The translations under genes were made by a program, and so were the position numbers. Shown in pieces: positions 35,958 through 60,369 of a stretch of 64,000 nt of DNA (position 1 is the first letter of the stretch; each line of letters starts with the position of its first letter). Origin of the DNA: a virus; the IMG/VR virus record IMGVR_UViG_3300031525_000001, positions 1 through 64,000 of that record; one strand, given 5' to 3'. The notes under the pieces are model-generated. The model was not told the DNA's origin, searched no databases, and saw only the letters and a program-made list of their open reading frames with translations.

Positions 35958-36191
35958 ATGCAGCGACACAGACGGTGTTCAGAGCATAGAAAATTTGCCT
36001 CGCAAAAAGAAGCGGATGACGAGTTGGGCAAAGTCGCGTTGTGGGGGATGAGACGCGGGGGCAGTACGTGGCGGCTGCTTAAAGTGTTCTCCTGTGGGGA
36101 TCACTGGCACATCGGCCGGGATTGGGCGTCGAGATTCATGCTTCCCGAAGAGGAAACGGCGAAGCCCAGCAAAGCCGCCCCCGCCAGCTAG
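35958..36191 (+). CDS. Small protein of unknown function
   Basis: 77 aa with GGTATTAT (35933-35940 region) and AAGGAG before the ATG. Basic N-terminus with Cys/His (MQRHRRCSEHRKFAS), then WRLLKVFSCGDHWHIGRDW and a Lys/Ala/Pro tail. Cys9, His12, Cys and His residues could bind a metal. It ends with a TAG whose preceding C makes CTAG, which is also the stop of the convergent gene. Confidence 0.5.
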   Translation: MQRHRRCSEHRKFASQKEADDELGKVALWGMRRGGSTWRLLKVFSCGDHWHIGRDWASRFMLPEEETAKPSKAAPAS

Positions 36192-37018
36192 ATTCCCGGG
36201 TAGCCGTTACGCGGCTTGCCCTCACCTAACCGCACCCGCTCATACTTATCGAACTCACAAAGGCAGTTCTGGAGGTCCTGCATGTGGATTTCCGGCATCC
36301 CCACGTTGGCGACTAACGGTTTGATCTGCCGCCGCAGGTCGAGCATCGTGTCCAACCACATCGACTCTTGCCAAACCTGATCCACGGGGTAGTTCATGAC
36401 ACGGTTCAATCCGCGCTTACTGCCCGGACCCGAACACGCCCACTCCATCCAATCCACGCTGTTCACAAGCAACTTGGTGTACTTCGTGTCACACACGACC
36501 TGCCCCGCAAGAAAGCTGCCCATGCCGTTATACTTCATCAATTGCTTGTGGAAGTCCGCGAGGCTGTGTGCGGACTCGGTGATGTCGTTGCGCTGGCACC
36601 ACATCGGATTGAGAACTTCGCTGGCGATGTATCTCGCCTTGGATGAGAACCCCGCTTTCGCGGGTACGATGTAGACGCCCGTAAAAACCTTCTCTTTCGC
36701 CTGCTTGCGGCGTTCGAGCACTTCGATGAAATGCATCGGGTCAAACGGGACAGGGTAGCCAAGCTCTTCGAGCGTGTCGGGCCAGTTCACGAGGCGGGCG
36801 ACCGTCATCGCAAACCATACCTCGGGGCTATCGTAGTGATTATCACGCCAGTGTTCGGCGATCCACTGCGTCACCTTGTCGAGTTCGCGGTAGACGTTGC
36901 AGAAACGGTAGGCCCTCAGGATGGGGTCCTCTGTCCAAGGTTTCGGATATCCGGCGTTCTTGGCTTCGTAGATCGCGTGCCGTTCGGTGATCCACGCGAA
37001 AAGGGCTTCGACTCTCAT
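36188..37018 (-). CDS. Alpha-glutamyl/putrescinyl-thymine pyrophosphorylase-like protein
   Basis: 276 aa. The N-terminal region (WTEDPILRAYRFCNVYRELD, KVTQWIAEHWRD, WFAMTVARLVNWPDTLEELG) matches the aGPT-PPlase family described in phages with hypermodified thymines. There 'W-DP-L-x-YRF-NV-RE-D-V--W' is the hallmark and the enzymes act on pyrophosphorylated 5-hydroxymethyluracil in DNA to install putrescine or glutamate. Later blocks (KARYIASEVLNP, GMGSFLAGQVVCD, DWMEWACSGPGSKRGLNR) also fit, with the DNA-glycosylase-like GPGSKRGL loop. A GGTATTAT box ends 6 nt before ATG (probable leaderless mRNA). Neighbours the Mom-like gene in the same orientation. Confidence 0.75.
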   Translation of the reverse strand: MRVEALFAWITERHAIYEAKNAGYPKPWTEDPILRAYRFCNVYRELDKVTQWIAEHWRDNHYDSPEVWFAMTVARLVNWPDTLEELGYPVPFDPMHFIEVLERRKQAKEKVFTGVYIVPAKAGFSSKARYIASEVLNPMWCQRNDITESAHSLADFHKQLMKYNGMGSFLAGQVVCDTKYTKLLVNSVDWMEWACSGPGSKRGLNRVMNYPVDQVWQESMWLDTMLDLRRQIKPLVANVGMPEIHMQDLQNCLCEFDKYERVRLGEGKPRNGYPGI

Positions 37019-38531: not shown

Positions 38532-38565
38532 TTCCTAGCCAAAATCCTCTGACTTCGGGTATCAT
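38532..38565 (+). promoter_or_regulatory. Phage promoter, TTCCTAGCC-type (copy 2), for tmRNA
   Basis: TTCCTAGCC at 38532-38540, 19 nt, then TATCAT at 38560-38565 preceded by GGG. Start of transcription is expected near 38572, just ahead of the tmRNA acceptor piece. Confidence 0.7.
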
Positions 38566-38574
38566 GTAATAGAT

Positions 38575-38681
38575 GGTCGTAAGTCCATACCGAACCTGAC
38601 CCTTCAATGGGTGGTCTCGGGTGGATAAAAGGCACTGGTACTGATTTTCAGACAGGGGTTCGACTCCCCTCAGGTCCACCA
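38575..38681 (+). ncRNA. ssrA: Permuted tmRNA, acceptor (3') piece
   Basis: The sequence ends in a T-arm GGGG-TTCGACT-CCCC followed by CAGGTCC-A-CCA, with CCA at 38679-38681. Its acceptor half CAGGTCC pairs with all seven bases (one G-U) of GGGCCTG that begins the coding piece at 38763, not with anything adequate directly upstream. The P2 strand GGAT...CTGG-TA-CTG (~38631-38643) complements CAG-CCAG-CG-ATCC in the coding piece. The order acceptor piece, spacer, coding piece is that of circularly permuted tmRNAs known from alphaproteobacteria and some cyanobacteria. The exact 5' end is uncertain. Confidence 0.75.
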
Positions 38682-38762
38682 TATCCGAAGTAACCTTCGG
38701 GCGTGTTTCGGTGAGTGCTCCACCAGTAGGTTTGAGCATTGACCAAACACACCCGACATTAT

Positions 38763-38937
38763 GGGCCTGTCCCGGTTTCGATGAAGACGGTATGGGATGG
38801 CAGCCAGCGATCCGAGGGAAGGATGATTCCTCGTTAAACTCCATTCAAAAACATAAACGCTACTGCTCCAAAGGCAATGGCTGCTCACGCTTAATTGCGT
38901 AGCACAGACCCCGTGGGTCTGTTCCTCAACACGGCAA
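38763..38937 (+). ncRNA. ssrA: Permuted tmRNA, coding (5') piece with proteolysis tag
   Basis: Begins GGGCCTG (acceptor half), then CGGTTTCGATGAAGACGG, which matches the conserved tmRNA D-loop region 'GGxTTCGACGG', and CCGAGGG...CCTCGTTAAA, the conserved helix-P5 region. The likely tag frame is GCT at 38859 to TAA at 38892-38894, encoding ATAPKAMAAHA (with upstream in-frame N-I-N residues possible). The end AAHA is unusual beside the common LAA/VAA. No T-arm or CCA follows; a terminator does. The RNA rescues stalled ribosomes with SmpB. Confidence 0.8.
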
Positions 38938-38941
38938 GAGA

Positions 38942-38966
38942 GCCCGCGCAAGCGGGCATTTTTGTT
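38942..38966 (+). terminator. Rho-independent terminator after tmRNA
   Basis: GCCCGC (38942-38947), GCAA tetraloop, GCGGGC (38952-38957), then ATTTTTGTTT. It ends the tmRNA unit, confirming that no 3' acceptor lies downstream. Confidence 0.85.
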
Positions 38967-38971
38967 TCTGG

Positions 38972-39000
38972 TTGACAATTTGAATTTCAAAGGCTAGTAT
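38972..39000 (+). promoter_or_regulatory. Sigma70-type promoter
   Basis: TTGACA at 38972-38977, 17-nt spacer, TAGTAT at 38995-39000. It lies 12 nt before the ATG of the acidic protein at 39013, giving a very short leader. The -35 is a perfect host consensus, unlike the TTCCTAGC-type promoters. Confidence 0.7.
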
Positions 39001-54158: not shown

Positions 54159-54373
54159 TTCGCGAATCCGAAGTAGAAGAACCCCGCCAAGCCCTGATGA
54201 CCATTCTGGACATCATGAGTCGCTATGCGTCATTCACCCCCGCCGACCGTGAAATCATCCGTGCGGCTAACCGTGGACTTCTTGGCACCGACCCGCGTGG
54301 CCGATGGGAGATTGATAAGCTGTCCGAAGAAGAGCAAACCGACCCAAATTACTACGCCCTAAAATGCAGCTAA
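54155..54373 (+). CDS. Small helical protein
   Basis: 72 aa, RBS GGAGGAG, start overlaps the phosphatase stop (ATGA). Helical and acidic (PRQALMTILDIMSRYASFTP). Overlaps the helicase start by 10 nt. Function unknown. Confidence 0.5.
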   Translation: MIRESEVEEPRQALMTILDIMSRYASFTPADREIIRAANRGLLGTDPRGRWEIDKLSEEEQTDPNYYALKCS

Positions 54374-57303
54374 ATGAAGAACAGACGCTCGCGGTCGAAC
54401 ATCCGCTCAACGAACCCGCTTGCTTGATCGCAGGCGCGGGCAGCGGCAAGACTCGCGTGCTCACCGAGCGTGTTCGCCATTTGATGGATAAAAAGGGCGT
54501 CGTCCCAAAGCGTATTTGCGCGGTGACGTTTACCAACAAAGCCGCAGGCGAACTCCTAACCCGCTTGGGGCTCGATACAAACGATACCCCGCTTCTGAAC
54601 CCCCGTGTCTCGACAATCCACTCCCTCGCTCTGGGTGCCATCCGTAAGAATCCGCCAGCCTTTAGTGTCGAGGGCGAATGCGAATTAAAAGACAGGGTAT
54701 CCCCACTCGACGATTACGATCAGAGCCAGATGATGAAGAAGATCATCGAGCGGGGCAAGATCACGGACACCAATCCGTGGCGTGTCTTGGAGAACATCTC
54801 ATTTCACCGAGCCCGTGGTGTTGGTTTCATGAGTGACTACACGGAAGAGATCGCAGCGGAAGCCGAGGTAATGCACGGCGGCTACCATGCGATGGGTGAG
54901 ACCGAATTGTGTCTGTGGAAACTGTACGAAGAGGAAAAGGCTCGGAATTCGGTCGTGGATTTCGACGACATGTTGCACCTGACTGTGCGACGATTCCGCA
55001 GGGACGCGAAGTGGCGTGGGGCTATTCAAGCGATGTGGGATCACGTCCTGATGGATGAAGCTCAGGATACGAACCCCGTACAGTGGGAGTTCGTCAACTC
55101 GCTGCTTGCCCCCAGCAACATGAACATCTACGTCGTCGGCGACATGAGCCAATGTCAACCTCCCGGTTCAGTGGTGAAAATCAAAGTATCTGGGCATAAA
55201 CCGAACGGATATGGAAAACCTTGGACGCCTTCTGAGTGGGTGGAAAAAGACATTTCGACGCTAGTTGATGGTGAATTGGCGGAATCATGGACACGGAAAG
55301 ACCAACGAACCTATAAAATCGGTAGGAAGATTAAGGTCGCATCTAGACCATACAAAGGAATTCTTCTTAAGGTCTGCACTGGGGACGGAAAGCAGACCCG
55401 TGTCACTCCCAATCATCAATTGTGGGTACGTCTCGGTTCGGAGACGAGTGGTAAATACATCGTCTATCTCATGTGGCGTGAAAACTTCGGTTTCAGAGTC
55501 GGTATGGCGAAGTTGAAGCGCAACAATCATGCTTTCGGATTGACGGCTCGGATGCGTCAGGAGAAAGCTGATAAAGGTTGGGTACTCGCGGTTAAGGACT
55601 CTAAGAGAGAAGCGCGGAAACTTGAAGAGATCGTTTCGTGTTATTACGGAATCCCTCAGACATGTTTCGAGGCTGATTTAGAGCGTCTCGATATTTTTCA
55701 GAGTCTACAAACTGCGACCGTAGAAGCGTCATCTCCAACAAGTGGTTCACTCACGGCTGTTCTGCCTTTTGAGGATCGTCGGCGAGAAGGAAAGGGCGGC
55801 AGTGGTTGGGCGTGTTTGAAAGCATTCCGCTTGCTATGGGAGTGTCCTTCCATGGTGCGGTGGTCGGAAAACCAACGTCAGTACAACCATAACTGGCGGG
55901 GGTACTTCAAAACCGCAGCCGCAAACGTTCAGATTTTAGTTCGTGCGGGTCTTCAAGTCTACGTTCCTATCGAAGGAAATAATCAGTCAACCCCAATACT
56001 CGTCATGCCGCAAATGCCATACGAAGGACTGGTGTATTCGCTGGACGTTGAAAAAGACCATACTTACGTTGTAGACGGCATCGTAGTGGGGAACTCGATC
56101 TACGGGTTCAACGGTGCCGTGCCGCAAATCCTGAAGGACTTCAGCGAGAACTGGCGGGGCGTTCAGCCCAAGCTATATCGAATTGCCCGTAACCACCGCA
56201 GCGGTCAAAAAATCGTGGACATGGCGAATGCGATTCAGAACAAGATGACCCGTACCATCCCGCTCAAGATGGAAAGTTGGCGTGGTTTGAACGGGGAGAA
56301 GGGCAAAATCGAGATCATCCGGGGTACGATGTCGCGAGACATTGCATCCGAGATCGCCATTGAAATCTACAAGGACAACGAGAAGTTCCTGCGTGACGCC
56401 GCTTCTGTTGCCAATGGGGTAAAACCCCGAGAGTCGGCGGCTAGGCCGATCTCCTACCGTGAGAACTGCATCTTAGTTCGGGCGGCGATTCAGATTCGTG
56501 ACATTGAAGCTGAGTTGGTGAGACGCAAAATCCCGTATGTCGTGCGCGGCGGGCGGGGGCTTTTGCAGACCGAAGAAGTGCGAGACGTACTGTCGTATAT
56601 GAGGCTGGCGACCAACCATAGGGATTTCATGGCATTCGTGCGGGCTGCAAGCGTGCCGCGTAGGGGGTGTGGCGAAGTGGCATTGGAAAAGATTCGTGCC
56701 ATCGCCAACGACAAACATGATGGTGATCTGATCGCCGCAGCGGAGGGCGACAAGAACGCCAAGATAGCATCGTTCGGCGGGATCGTCAGGCTCATATCCC
56801 AGTTTGGTGAAGACCCAGTTGCTATGCTGGAACGGACGCTCGCCCTGACCCAGTATACGACCTACCTTGCCGAGAAGTACAAAAGAGACAGCAACAAGGT
56901 TAAAACCAAACTCGAAAATTTGGATCGGTTCGCCCAGCTTCTTGAGGGGATGGTCGCCGACAACAAGATGACCGCCGAGGACATTATTTTCCAGCTTACG
57001 CTTGATCGCCCGAAGGATGATGACGAGTCAGGCGCGGTCACCATCAGCACTATCCACAGCGCCAAGGGGCTCGAATGGAAGCGGGTCTACGTGGCAAACG
57101 TCGTGGAAAGCTCCCTTCCCCACAAGTTCTCCATGGGGTCTGAGGACGAGATTGAAGAAGAAAGACGTTTGTTTTACGTAGCTTGCACGCGGGCACGGGA
57201 CTACCTCAATTTGTGCGTCCCCGCCATGTACCAGCAGCCCGACTCCCCCAACGTAATTATGCTAAAACCCTCTAGATTCCTAGCCGAAATCAGTGTACAC
57301 TAG
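54364..57303 (+). CDS. UvrD/Rep-like superfamily 1 helicase containing an intein
   Basis: 979 aa, of which 314 are intein, leaving a 665-aa helicase. Motifs: LNEEQTLAVEH (Q), AGAGSGKT (I), VTFTNKAAGEL (Ia), DFDDMLH, MDEAQD (II), VVGDMSQ joined to SIYGFNGA (III), ARNHRSG (IV), VTISTIHSAKGLEWKRVYV (V) and ERRLFYVACTRARDYL (VI). This is a complete 3'-5' DNA helicase set, so it likely works in phage replication or repair. The intein splits motif III, a typical active-site position. Start ATG 54364 overlaps the preceding gene. Confidence 0.9.
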   Translation: MQLNEEQTLAVEHPLNEPACLIAGAGSGKTRVLTERVRHLMDKKGVVPKRICAVTFTNKAAGELLTRLGLDTNDTPLLNPRVSTIHSLALGAIRKNPPAFSVEGECELKDRVSPLDDYDQSQMMKKIIERGKITDTNPWRVLENISFHRARGVGFMSDYTEEIAAEAEVMHGGYHAMGETELCLWKLYEEEKARNSVVDFDDMLHLTVRRFRRDAKWRGAIQAMWDHVLMDEAQDTNPVQWEFVNSLLAPSNMNIYVVGDMSQCQPPGSVVKIKVSGHKPNGYGKPWTPSEWVEKDISTLVDGELAESWTRKDQRTYKIGRKIKVASRPYKGILLKVCTGDGKQTRVTPNHQLWVRLGSETSGKYIVYLMWRENFGFRVGMAKLKRNNHAFGLTARMRQEKADKGWVLAVKDSKREARKLEEIVSCYYGIPQTCFEADLERLDIFQSLQTATVEASSPTSGSLTAVLPFEDRRREGKGGSGWACLKAFRLLWECPSMVRWSENQRQYNHNWRGYFKTAAANVQILVRAGLQVYVPIEGNNQSTPILVMPQMPYEGLVYSLDVEKDHTYVVDGIVVGNSIYGFNGAVPQILKDFSENWRGVQPKLYRIARNHRSGQKIVDMANAIQNKMTRTIPLKMESWRGLNGEKGKIEIIRGTMSRDIASEIAIEIYKDNEKFLRDAASVANGVKPRESAARPISYRENCILVRAAIQIRDIEAELVRRKIPYVVRGGRGLLQTEEVRDVLSYMRLATNHRDFMAFVRAASVPRRGCGEVALEKIRAIANDKHDGDLIAAAEGDKNAKIASFGGIVRLISQFGEDPVAMLERTLALTQYTTYLAEKYKRDSNKVKTKLENLDRFAQLLEGMVADNKMTAEDIIFQLTLDRPKDDDESGAVTISTIHSAKGLEWKRVYVANVVESSLPHKFSMGSEDEIEEERRLFYVACTRARDYLNLCVPAMYQQPDSPNVIMLKPSRFLAEISVH
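55153..56094 (+). mobile_element. Intein in helicase motif III
   Basis: Residues 264-577. It begins at Cys264 (TGT 55153) after DMSQ and ends VVDGIVVGN before Ser578 of SIYGF. Block B-like VTPNHQLWV and block F-like VYSLDVEKDHTYV are present; the penultimate residue is Gly rather than His. The middle has KYIVYLMWRENFGFRVGMAK, AFGLTARMRQE and SKREARKLEEIVS, spaced like a GIY-YIG nuclease (GIY, YIG, Arg, Glu). Most inteins carry LAGLIDADG or HNH enzymes, so this would be uncommon. Confidence 0.8.
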
Positions 57304-57755: not shown

Positions 57756-58029
57756 TGATTGGGAAGTGAGCACCGAGGAAGGCAACCGCCTCTTTGACGA
57801 ATCCCTAAGTGCTCTCAGACCGATCATGGAAAAGTATCTGGTGGAAGGTTACCCTCTCCGTCAGATTGCTCACGAGATGATCGGCTCCGTCACCATACTC
57901 GAAGCCGAGACCTGCCTTATACGCAACACAGAAATGCACAAGGCCAACCGTAAACCGCGATTCGGCGTGAAAGAAAATGTGCCTCTCGCCGACCTGAAAG
58001 CATCAAAAGAACAGGAGCCAACAAAGTGA
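57721..58029 (+). CDS. Small unknown protein
   Basis: 102 aa from ATG 57721 (GAGG upstream; an upstream in-frame start at 57706 lacks an RBS). Helical, with a possible helix-turn-helix (LVEGYPLRQIAHEMIGSVTI). Stop overlaps the GTG start of the NadM-Nudix gene. Confidence 0.5.
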   Translation: MEAKVPNRSLYNDWEVSTEEGNRLFDESLSALRPIMEKYLVEGYPLRQIAHEMIGSVTILEAETCLIRNTEMHKANRKPRFGVKENVPLADLKASKEQEPTK

Positions 58030-58967
58030 TTAAACCGAGCTACGGCGTCATCGTCGGACGGTTCCAAGTCACCGATTTAACCGAAGGGCACATGGAGCTA
58101 TTCCGTCAGGTTCGACGGAATCACAAAACTGTAATCGTGTTCGTCGGTGTGGCACCCGCAAGTCTCACACAGAACCACCCTCTGGACTTCCCGACGCGGA
58201 AGGCTATGATCCAAGCCAAATTCCCCGAGTTCATCGTGCTCCCACTCCGCGATACCCGAGACGATGAGTCTTGGAGCGAGCAACTGGATTACGCCATTTC
58301 CTCGTGTGCCGATTTCGCCGACGTTACACTGTACGGCGGACGCGACTCTTTTGTCCCGCACTACCACGGCAGATTCAAGCCTGTTGAATTGGCTCTCTCC
58401 GTTGATGCCTCCATTAGTGCAACGGCTAACCGCAAGGAACATTCTGATAAGGTGCTCGAATCTTCCGATTTCCGTGCGGGCATGATCTACGCTATTCACC
58501 ATCTGTGGCCTGTAACGCTTATGATGGTCGATATCGCCATCCTGAGCTATGACCGTAGCGAGGTTCTTCTCGCTCAAAAGCCCGGTGAAAACAAATGGCG
58601 ATTCGCAGGCGGGCACGTTGAAGCTCGAAAGGGCAACATCGAAAAGAACGCTCGGCTCGAAGCCATTGAAGAGACGGGCTGCGACCTGATTGACCAAGAG
58701 TACATCGGGTCCGCCATCATCGACGACTGGCGTTACCGTGTTGCCGACCGCAGCGTGCTGACCGCATTCTACGCAGGACGTGTCAGTAACATGGGGGCCG
58801 TGGCGAAGGACGACGTGAAGGATGTTCGCTGGTTCCGTCTCGATAAACTCACGGCATTTGACATGATGGTGGAACACATGGAGCTTCTCGTCATGTTGCA
58901 GAATTATCTCAAGAAATTCAAGGAGGCACAAAATGCCACGTCCATTCAAACCGCGTCCACTACATAA
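58026..58967 (+). CDS. nadM: Bifunctional NMN adenylyltransferase (NadM-type)/Nudix hydrolase
   Basis: 313 aa, GTG start with AGGAG upstream. N-terminal ~170 aa: GVIVGRFQVTDLTEGHMELF with the nucleotidyltransferase T/HxGH motif (TEGH), then FPTRKAMIQ and SVDASISATANRK, equivalent to the ISxT--R motif. C-terminal ~140 aa: GENKWRFAGGHVEARKG ... ARLEAIEETGCDL, a Nudix box. Such fusions make NAD+ from NMN and ATP and clean up ADP-ribose-type compounds. The 3' end overlaps the NAMPT gene by 35 nt, so both proteins are made together. Confidence 0.85.
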   Translation: MIKPSYGVIVGRFQVTDLTEGHMELFRQVRRNHKTVIVFVGVAPASLTQNHPLDFPTRKAMIQAKFPEFIVLPLRDTRDDESWSEQLDYAISSCADFADVTLYGGRDSFVPHYHGRFKPVELALSVDASISATANRKEHSDKVLESSDFRAGMIYAIHHLWPVTLMMVDIAILSYDRSEVLLAQKPGENKWRFAGGHVEARKGNIEKNARLEAIEETGCDLIDQEYIGSAIIDDWRYRVADRSVLTAFYAGRVSNMGAVAKDDVKDVRWFRLDKLTAFDMMVEHMELLVMLQNYLKKFKEAQNATSIQTASTT

Positions 58968-60369
58968 GACTGACAGCTACAAGGTCGGTCACTGGCGGTT
59001 CATCGTTCCGGGCACCACGGAAATGCTGTATTACTATGAGGCTCGCGGCGGCGAGTACCCGTACACCGTCCTGTTCGATTTGCAGGGCAACATGATCCGC
59101 AACATCGAGGGCAAGTTCGCTACGCTGACTGATGTTGAGGAAGCGGAGTACAAAGCGGGCCTGCACTTCATGAACGACCGCGCCTTCAACAAGGAAGGCT
59201 GGCGGCACGTCATCAACGCACATGGCGGCTACCTACCGCTGGACATCCGTGCGGTCAAGGAAGGTCTCCCGATCCCCGTGAAGAACGTCATGTGGACGAT
59301 GAAGAACACCTGCGATCAATGTGCGTGGGTTCCGGGCTGGACGGAAACAATTCTGGAGCACGTGTGGTATCCCTCGGCTGTCGTCACGCGGTCTCGCTAT
59401 ACCAAGCAAATCCTCGCTGAGTTCCTCGCGGAGACGGCTGATGATTTCTCCACGTTGCCGTATCAGCTTCACGATTTCGGCGGTCGCGGCGTCACTTGCG
59501 TCGAGCAAATGGGTATCGGTGCTGCGGCTCACCTTGTCAACTTCCAAGGCACGGACACACTGCCCGGAATTGACTACATCGAGCAGTTCTACGGATTCGG
59601 GAAGTTCGGCGGCGAAATGCCGGGTTACTCCGTATTCGCGTCTGAGCACTCCGTCACCACTATGTGGGGCCGTGAGTACGAATCAAAGTTTGTCGAGAAC
59701 GCACTGGATGAAGTGCCCACGGGTATTCTCTCCCTCGTTGGCGATTCCTACGACATTTTCAACTTCACTGCCAACATCATCGGCGGCACGTATCGCGAAC
59801 GCATCCGCAACCGTAACGGCAAGGTTGTGGTCCGTCCCGACTCCGGTGATCCAGTAGCGATCACTCTTCGCGTGCTGGAAATTCTGGGCGAGAAGTTCGG
59901 CATCCGCGAGACGAGCAACGGCTACAAGCTGCTTCCGCCTTGCGTCGGCGTCCTCTGGGGCGACGGCATCGACCACTACGGCATCCGCAAGATTTTGCAG
60001 GCAATGAAGGACGCCAAGTGGTCCGCAGCCAACATCGTGTTTGGTATGGGTGGTGGGCTGCTCCAGAAATTGAACCGAGATACGCAGAAGGTTGCAATCA
60101 AGTGCTGCAACGCTGTCATCAACGGTCAGCAGATTGAAATCTGGAAAGACCCGATCACCGATCCCGGCAAGGCATCGAAGCGCGGGCGGCAGGCCCTTCT
60201 GGACGACCAGCAGGGCGGCTATCACTCCATGCAGTACAGGGGTGACGGCAAGATGGGCTACCCGTTTGACATTCTTGAACCAGCGTACCTGAACGGCGAG
60301 GTCCTGCGGTTCCAGAAATTCCCTGAAATTCGGCAGCTTGCGGAAGTGCCGTTGGAAGTGTACGCATAA
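58933..60369 (+). CDS. nampT: Nicotinamide phosphoribosyltransferase
   Basis: 478 aa, full length for the family, RBS AAGGAGG. Motifs: KTDSYKVGHW at the N-terminus, LHDFGGRGV, GTDTLPGI, EHSVTTMWG, VVVRPDSGDP (phosphate/ribose site) and GMGGGLLQKLNRD. It converts nicotinamide and PRPP to NMN, which the upstream NadM turns into NAD+. Such a phage pair matches the NAD+ reconstitution pathway (NARP2-type) that counters NAD-depleting defence systems. All key segments appear intact. Confidence 0.92.
   Translation: MPRPFKPRPLHKTDSYKVGHWRFIVPGTTEMLYYYEARGGEYPYTVLFDLQGNMIRNIEGKFATLTDVEEAEYKAGLHFMNDRAFNKEGWRHVINAHGGYLPLDIRAVKEGLPIPVKNVMWTMKNTCDQCAWVPGWTETILEHVWYPSAVVTRSRYTKQILAEFLAETADDFSTLPYQLHDFGGRGVTCVEQMGIGAAAHLVNFQGTDTLPGIDYIEQFYGFGKFGGEMPGYSVFASEHSVTTMWGREYESKFVENALDEVPTGILSLVGDSYDIFNFTANIIGGTYRERIRNRNGKVVVRPDSGDPVAITLRVLEILGEKFGIRETSNGYKLLPPCVGVLWGDGIDHYGIRKILQAMKDAKWSAANIVFGMGGGLLQKLNRDTQKVAIKCCNAVINGQQIEIWKDPITDPGKASKRGRQALLDDQQGGYHSMQYRGDGKMGYPFDILEPAYLNGEVLRFQKFPEIRQLAEVPLEVYA

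Follow-up and report, generated by a model that had tools for sequence, protein, structure and literature searches.

The 64-kb stretch analyzed here (henceforth the window), which comprises the first 64 kb of the 186,275-bp IMG/VR record of a soil phage, carries a circularly permuted, two-piece tmRNA gene at positions 38573–38967. This organization, proposed in an initial annotation made from the sequence alone, is borne out by a permuted call of ARAGORN, by a match to the Rfam model RF04321 (tmRNA_permuted), by an acceptor partner that lies upstream only, and, most decisively, by the covariation that links the two halves of the molecule. We consider it highly probable that a large tailed phage, from a lineage that infects Acidobacteriota, here carries a working tmRNA gene, and that this gene acts by the mechanism proposed below. 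Two-piece tmRNAs function in bacteria that co-evolved with them. The phages described here appear to run a two-piece tmRNA in hosts that possess only the one-piece form, and to do so with a tag that lacks the host-type degron.

Architecture of the permuted tmRNA gene

All elements of the gene lie on the plus strand. ARAGORN, applied to the window, reports a permuted tmRNA (tmRNA*) at 38585–38985 with the tag ATAPKAMAAHA. The covariance-model search that the initial annotation had named as a check agrees: RF04321 matches 38620–38888 over the full model (positions 1–213), scoring 61.4 bits (cut-off 47) with an E value of 1.9e-9. The gene opens with the leader motif of the acceptor piece, ATGGTCGTAA (38573–38582), which is common to other permuted tmRNAs. 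The acceptor half (38645–38681), delimited by the RF04321 alignment and by covariation, consists of the 3' strand of P2 (38645–38650, followed by GAC), the T-arm (38654–38670, placed by the same alignment), and the 3' strand of P1, CAGGTCC (38671–38677), from which ACCA leads to a predicted mature 3' end at 38681. An intervening segment of 81 nt (38682–38762), presumably removed in maturation, separates the halves and folds into a strong hairpin (MFE -35.2 kcal/mol); among relatives this linker measures 4–81 nt.

The 5' end of the coding half (38763–38787), supported by RF04321 and by compensatory changes in P1 and P2, contains the 5' strand of P1, GGGCCTG (38763–38769), the sequence TTCGA in a D-like loop (38777–38781), and the 5' strand of P2 (38782–38787). 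It pairs with the upstream half as had been claimed: GGGCCTG and CAGGTCC match at 7/7 positions, including one G.U pair (G3.U70), and the P2 strands at 6/6. Further downstream follow a CGAGG...CCTCG hairpin 5' of the resume codon (38813–38817 with 38829–38833), recognizable in the sequence and in the RF04321 alignment, and the tag frame A-T-A-P-K-A-M-A-A-H-A-stop (38859–38894). Each part of the 5' domain named in the initial annotation was thereby located. An H-type pseudoknot after the tag (38905–38933) is built from the stems 38905–38910/38916–38921 and 38912–38915/38930–38933. Within 600 nt 3' of the coding half, no strand that is 7/7-compatible and followed by NCCA was found. Instead, the transcription unit closes with an intrinsic terminator (38942–38967, i.e., 38942–38957 plus a T run), detected by a consensus scan and conserved in three related loci (L004–L006).

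One element of the earlier reading did not hold. A phage-type promoter had been postulated upstream of the gene, but the window has just a weak sigma70-like match, TAGCCA-18-TATCAT (38536–38565; 9/12 in a consensus scan), in surroundings conserved in L004–L006. In two further relatives, L249 and L250, inspection by eye gave TTGACA-17-TATTAT/TATTCT. These matches, weak in the window itself, suggest a host-type rather than a phage-type promoter. The sequence CCTAGCCAAAAT, considered as a promoter motif, was rejected: it has 8 occurrences at up to two mismatches, with 3.0 expected, and its exact copy occurs solely here.

Covariation joins the two halves

Related loci were reached via neighboring proteins and the tail sheath and then scanned with RF04321, and nine phage loci were aligned. 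The structure tested comprised P1, P2, and the T-stem, with 18 pairs and 160 cells. Across the nine loci, 99.4% of the cells are paired, compared with 79% in column shuffles and 42–59% when the partner strand is slid along the alignment; a shift by a single column already lowers pairing to 57–59%. Two-sided changes occur in 13/18 pairs (4/7 in P1, 4/6 in P2, and 5/5 in the T-stem), and the covariation score is 0.625 versus 0.219 in shuffles (0/500). P1 is paired in 63/63 cells, that is, at 7/7 positions in each of the nine loci, which carry seven different P1 sequences. G3.U70, an alanine identity element, is invariant throughout, and the CCA end is present. The T-loop of L249 is shortened. 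A further locus, L009, pairs at only 6/7 positions of P1 and is without the TTCGA loop; it may be degenerate and was left out of the counts. Some large relatives (contigs of 265 kb and 158 kb), which may be fragments, gave no match to RF04321.

The pairing pattern bears directly on a simpler explanation, in which a tRNA or tRNA remnant is followed by a truncated one-piece tmRNA and the locus merely seems permuted. Such artefacts are real. Five acidobacterial genomes (L165–L169) yield false permuted calls of 60–72 bits, above the RF04321 cut-off, whereas ARAGORN identifies a one-piece tmRNA in 5/5, and tRNA-Asp/Val genes adjoin the tmRNA in four of the five. Since these values overlap those of the phage genes (53–86 bits; bacterial permuted tmRNAs reach 97–162), an RF04321 score alone is no proof of permutation, and users of the model should check the pairing. 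ARAGORN furthermore reports an overlapping tRNA-Thr in L004. At the window locus, however, the program calls no tRNA at the place of the tmRNA. A strand that pairs at 7/7 positions and is followed by NCCA is located upstream in 9/9 loci and downstream in 0/9, and the gene is complete across a wide divergence. With P1 and P2 covarying between the halves over the nine loci, the artefact is ruled out for the window, and we regard this explanation as extremely improbable.

Relatives in phages of Acidobacteriota

The nearest isolate is the Tunturiibacter phage Tunturi_5 (PP885688, 309 kb), obtained from Finnish tundra soil. In a comparison with the window, 23 of 209 ORFs match within a 59.6-kb stretch of Tunturi_5, including a collinear structural block with the major head protein (69%) and the head protease (63%), and the tail sheath matches at 44% over its full length. 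Tunturi_5 has a permuted tmRNA of its own (PP885688, 157899–158195, minus strand; 86.4 bits with RF04321), which lies in an unannotated gap and is not mentioned in the description of the phage (PMC11924767). Its mature ends are predicted near 158129 for the CCA of the acceptor piece and near 158092 for the 5' end of the coding piece. It adjoins NAMPT and cytidyltransferase genes. The window encodes a homologous pair at 58026–60369 (plus strand), a NUDIX/cytidyltransferase and a nicotinamide phosphoribosyltransferase of NAD salvage. Gene order around the tmRNA is conserved among the other relatives: the same upstream-gene homologue adjoins it in L004–L006, L027, L249, L250, and L251, while in Tunturi_5 the tmRNA gene is located elsewhere in the genome.

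At the DNA level, the only direct relative among deposited phages was a T-arm-sized match in two human fecal records, and the one record examined contains the end of a one-piece tmRNA. A weak permuted match in L252, a 536-kb record (3300009031_000221), likewise proved to be a one-piece tmRNA and was discarded; L252 is a distant relative in which this gene, with the tag ANDNVEFTSFAAAA, resides inside a tRNA cluster. Two other genes of the window may be recorded here. A reading frame at 36191–37018 (minus strand) matches the helical domain of 5-hmdU DNA kinase with 178 bits, which suggests hypermodified phage DNA, and a UvrD-type helicase (54364–57303, plus strand) shows a weak intein-splicing match at residues 295–577, between its two helicase domains.

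To compare the phage gene with its counterpart in the host phylum, acidobacterial genomes were picked by a 16S signature based on the Acid31F primer. A one-piece tmRNA was present in all six Terriglobia genomes searched first, including Edaphobacter lichenicola M8UP30 (now placed in Tunturiibacter), and in 54/60 genomes across Acidobacteriota. No genuine permuted tmRNA was found in 396 acidobacterial genomes, and all 36 host tags that were read end in LAA; in a congener of the Tunturi_5 host the tag is AEPQFALAA. The form carried by the phages thus differs from the form of the host phylum. Given that the nearest isolate infects an acidobacterium and that its structural genes are collinear with those of the window, the window phage itself probably does so as well.

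A conserved tag and a covarying pseudoknot

The atypical tag end AAHA noted in the initial annotation was confirmed and shows conservation among related phages. The window and L004 share ATAPKAMAAHA, L005 and L251 encode ANAPKAMAAHA, and L006 encodes AEAPKAFAAHA; the remaining tags are ATAPKAFAAAA in L249, VTAPKAMAMAAAA in L250, and ANAPKAMAMAAAA in L027. The frame of Tunturi_5, read from the sequence, ends in ...AFAMAA and is apparently much longer than usual tags. Throughout the lineage, tags end in AAHA, AAAA, or AMAA and not in LAA. An LAA-type proteolysis tag has a C-terminal Ala-Ala after a hydrophobic residue, and the A-A-H-A end of the window tag does not conform to this pattern.

Pairwise comparison of five equally long tags gave 78 nucleotide differences, of which 45 (58%) are synonymous, with 26–29% expected; the bias is an indication and not a formal test because the pairs are not independent. 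The histidine codon, for example, is either CAC or CAT. This pattern suggests that the open tag frame and its stop codon are under selection. In a scan with the tag pattern, 12/14 matches fell into the lineage of the window phage; the other two were chance matches in protein-coding sequence and were dismissed.

The pseudoknot behind the tag is supported by covariation. In eight loci, 100% of its cells are paired, and two-sided changes affect 7/10 pairs, six of these belonging to the first stem and one to the second (0/500 shuffles). The motif that forms it, CTCAACAC, occurs in none of 146 comparators, comprising 36 acidobacterial one-piece, 64 mainly alphaproteobacterial permuted, and 46 viral sequences.

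Proposed mechanism and function

We propose that the sigma70-type promoter at ~38565 would drive a single transcript ending at the terminator (38967). Its maturation would fall to host tRNA-processing enzymes, with RNase P cutting before G38763 and 3' processing after the CCA at 38681, and the linker would be discarded. The resulting acceptor and coding pieces would be joined through P1 and P2, and host AlaRS would charge the acceptor piece with alanine via G3.U70. The processing and charging steps are carried over, by analogy, from the established two-piece tmRNAs of bacteria. During infection, host SmpB and EF-Tu would then deliver the tmRNA to stalled ribosomes, where ATAPKAMAAHA would be added. 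A search for SmpB genes in eight distinct related virus records, of which some are fragments, found none; the phage tmRNA presumably works with the SmpB of the host and would depend on it for its function.

The tag end bears on what becomes of the tagged product. In the E. coli tag, a substitution at either of the two C-terminal alanines increases the KM for ClpXP (PMC7652416), and a tag ending in AAHA would therefore be expected to be a weaker degron. On this analogy we predict an altered fate of the AAHA-tagged product. Tags without the LAA end of host tags would probably be degraded less well by host ClpXP, in which case the phage would likely profit from the recycling of ribosomes and not from removal of the tagged product. 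We tentatively raise the possibility, doubtful at present, that phages of Acidobacteriota bring a two-piece tmRNA in place of, or beside, the one-piece tmRNA of the host, with a tag changed such that ribosomes are recycled and the product stays unmarked. If true, this would constitute a redirected form of trans-translation.

The unusual tag end could also be read in another way, namely as a sign that the RNA is a decoy: host SmpB or AlaRS would be titrated by its tRNA-like domain and trans-translation in the host thereby blocked, a role suggested for the domain-only tmRNA of the mycobacteriophage DS6A. Phages can indeed harbor tmRNA-like RNAs that are inhibitory (PMC4131195, PMC11915505). A decoy would, however, need neither a tag frame, a stop codon, and a resume-codon region, all of which are kept here with synonymous changes, nor the conserved pseudoknot of the coding piece. 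Conservation of the frame speaks for genuine tagging, and we judge a decoy to be improbable. Since cultured Tunturi_5, which grows on Tunturiibacter psychrotolerans (laboratory host strain X4BP1), carries the unannotated gene, function of a two-piece tmRNA with one-piece host machinery is directly testable, as is whether phage trans-translation serves ribosome recycling or protein destruction.

Origin of the permutation

A one-piece tmRNA of acidobacterial type could have been permuted anew within the phage lineage, which would add a further independent origin of two-piece tmRNAs. This concerns the origin only and does not conflict with the mechanism proposed above. In L251, the first 22 nt are identical to Terriglobia one-piece tmRNAs, and identity over the tRNA-like domain reaches 0.92 with the nearest acidobacterial sequence, compared with 0.77 for the nearest alpha type. 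For the window subgroup, by comparison, identity to the nearest sequence is about the same (0.71–0.74) whether that sequence is acidobacterial, of the beta type, or a one-piece phage tmRNA. The phage copies sit among acidobacterial sequences in a tree of the short tRNA-like domain, and a grouping of the core phages with Acidobacteriota is not rejected by the AU test (0.55); the tree is unresolved, however, and the test rejects no arrangement at all.

Two motifs point the other way. ATGGTCGTAA, searched as a regular expression with a chance expectation of 0.002 per sequence, is present in 5/9 phage loci, in the beta type, in two-thirds of the alpha-type, and in some viral permuted sequences, the comparison set containing one clear beta-type and no confirmed cyanobacterial sequence. 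L027 has the post-tag motif GCAACAGAA, as in other permuted tmRNAs. Both motifs are absent from 36/36 acidobacterial one-piece tmRNAs. Because these motifs are common to other permuted tmRNAs, an independent permutation is disfavored, and we rate it as rather unlikely. We favor acquisition of an existing permuted gene, the tRNA-like domain of which would later have adapted to the host.

Comparison with known tmRNA systems

A phage-encoded permuted tmRNA had been deemed striking in the initial annotation. The copy itself stands, but two-piece tmRNAs in phages are not new: 53 have been described among 18,146 phage genomes (PMC9004378, 2022). A scan of our own with one pattern gave 53 viral contigs (L368–L420) that contain the halves of a permuted tmRNA. 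The window gene resembles those of the Methylophilales phage Melnitz, of pelagiphages, and of other phages (PMC9004378) in combining a permuted ssrA with a tag frame in a large tailed phage. The host lineages of these phages have two-piece tmRNAs themselves, whereas the host phylum of the relatives studied here has the one-piece form. In a sample of viral permuted comparators with tags read by ARAGORN, 22/22 end in LAA or IAA, in contrast to the AAHA, AAAA, or AMAA ends and the post-tag CTCAACAC pseudoknot of the window lineage. One viral contig, L407, has an unusually long tag ending in EFALAA.

With bacterial permuted tmRNAs (RF01849 alpha, RF01850 beta, and RF01851 cyano, merged in RF04321), the phage gene shares the order of T-arm/CCA, linker, 5' half, and tag, and P1 and P2 likewise join the pieces. 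The ATGGTCGTAA leader of the window resembles that of the beta type, yet the window scores 45.2 bits with RF01850 in the tRNA-like part, below the family cut-off of 84. The alpha type (RF01849) is set apart by its T-arm sequence GGGGGCGGTACCC, which is absent from the window lineage, and by a post-tag KYAACAGAA loop that is missing in the phage lineage except for L027. The one-piece tmRNAs of Acidobacteriota (RF00023) have a tRNA-like domain very similar to that of some relatives, as in L251, but are unpermuted, end their tags in LAA, and have another post-tag structure. The domain-only tmRNA of DS6A is also a phage-encoded tmRNA-like RNA, but is without a tag reading frame. What is new in the present lineage is that its relatives have one-piece hosts, that its tags are without the LAA degron, and that the segment behind the tag forms a new pseudoknot supported by covariation.
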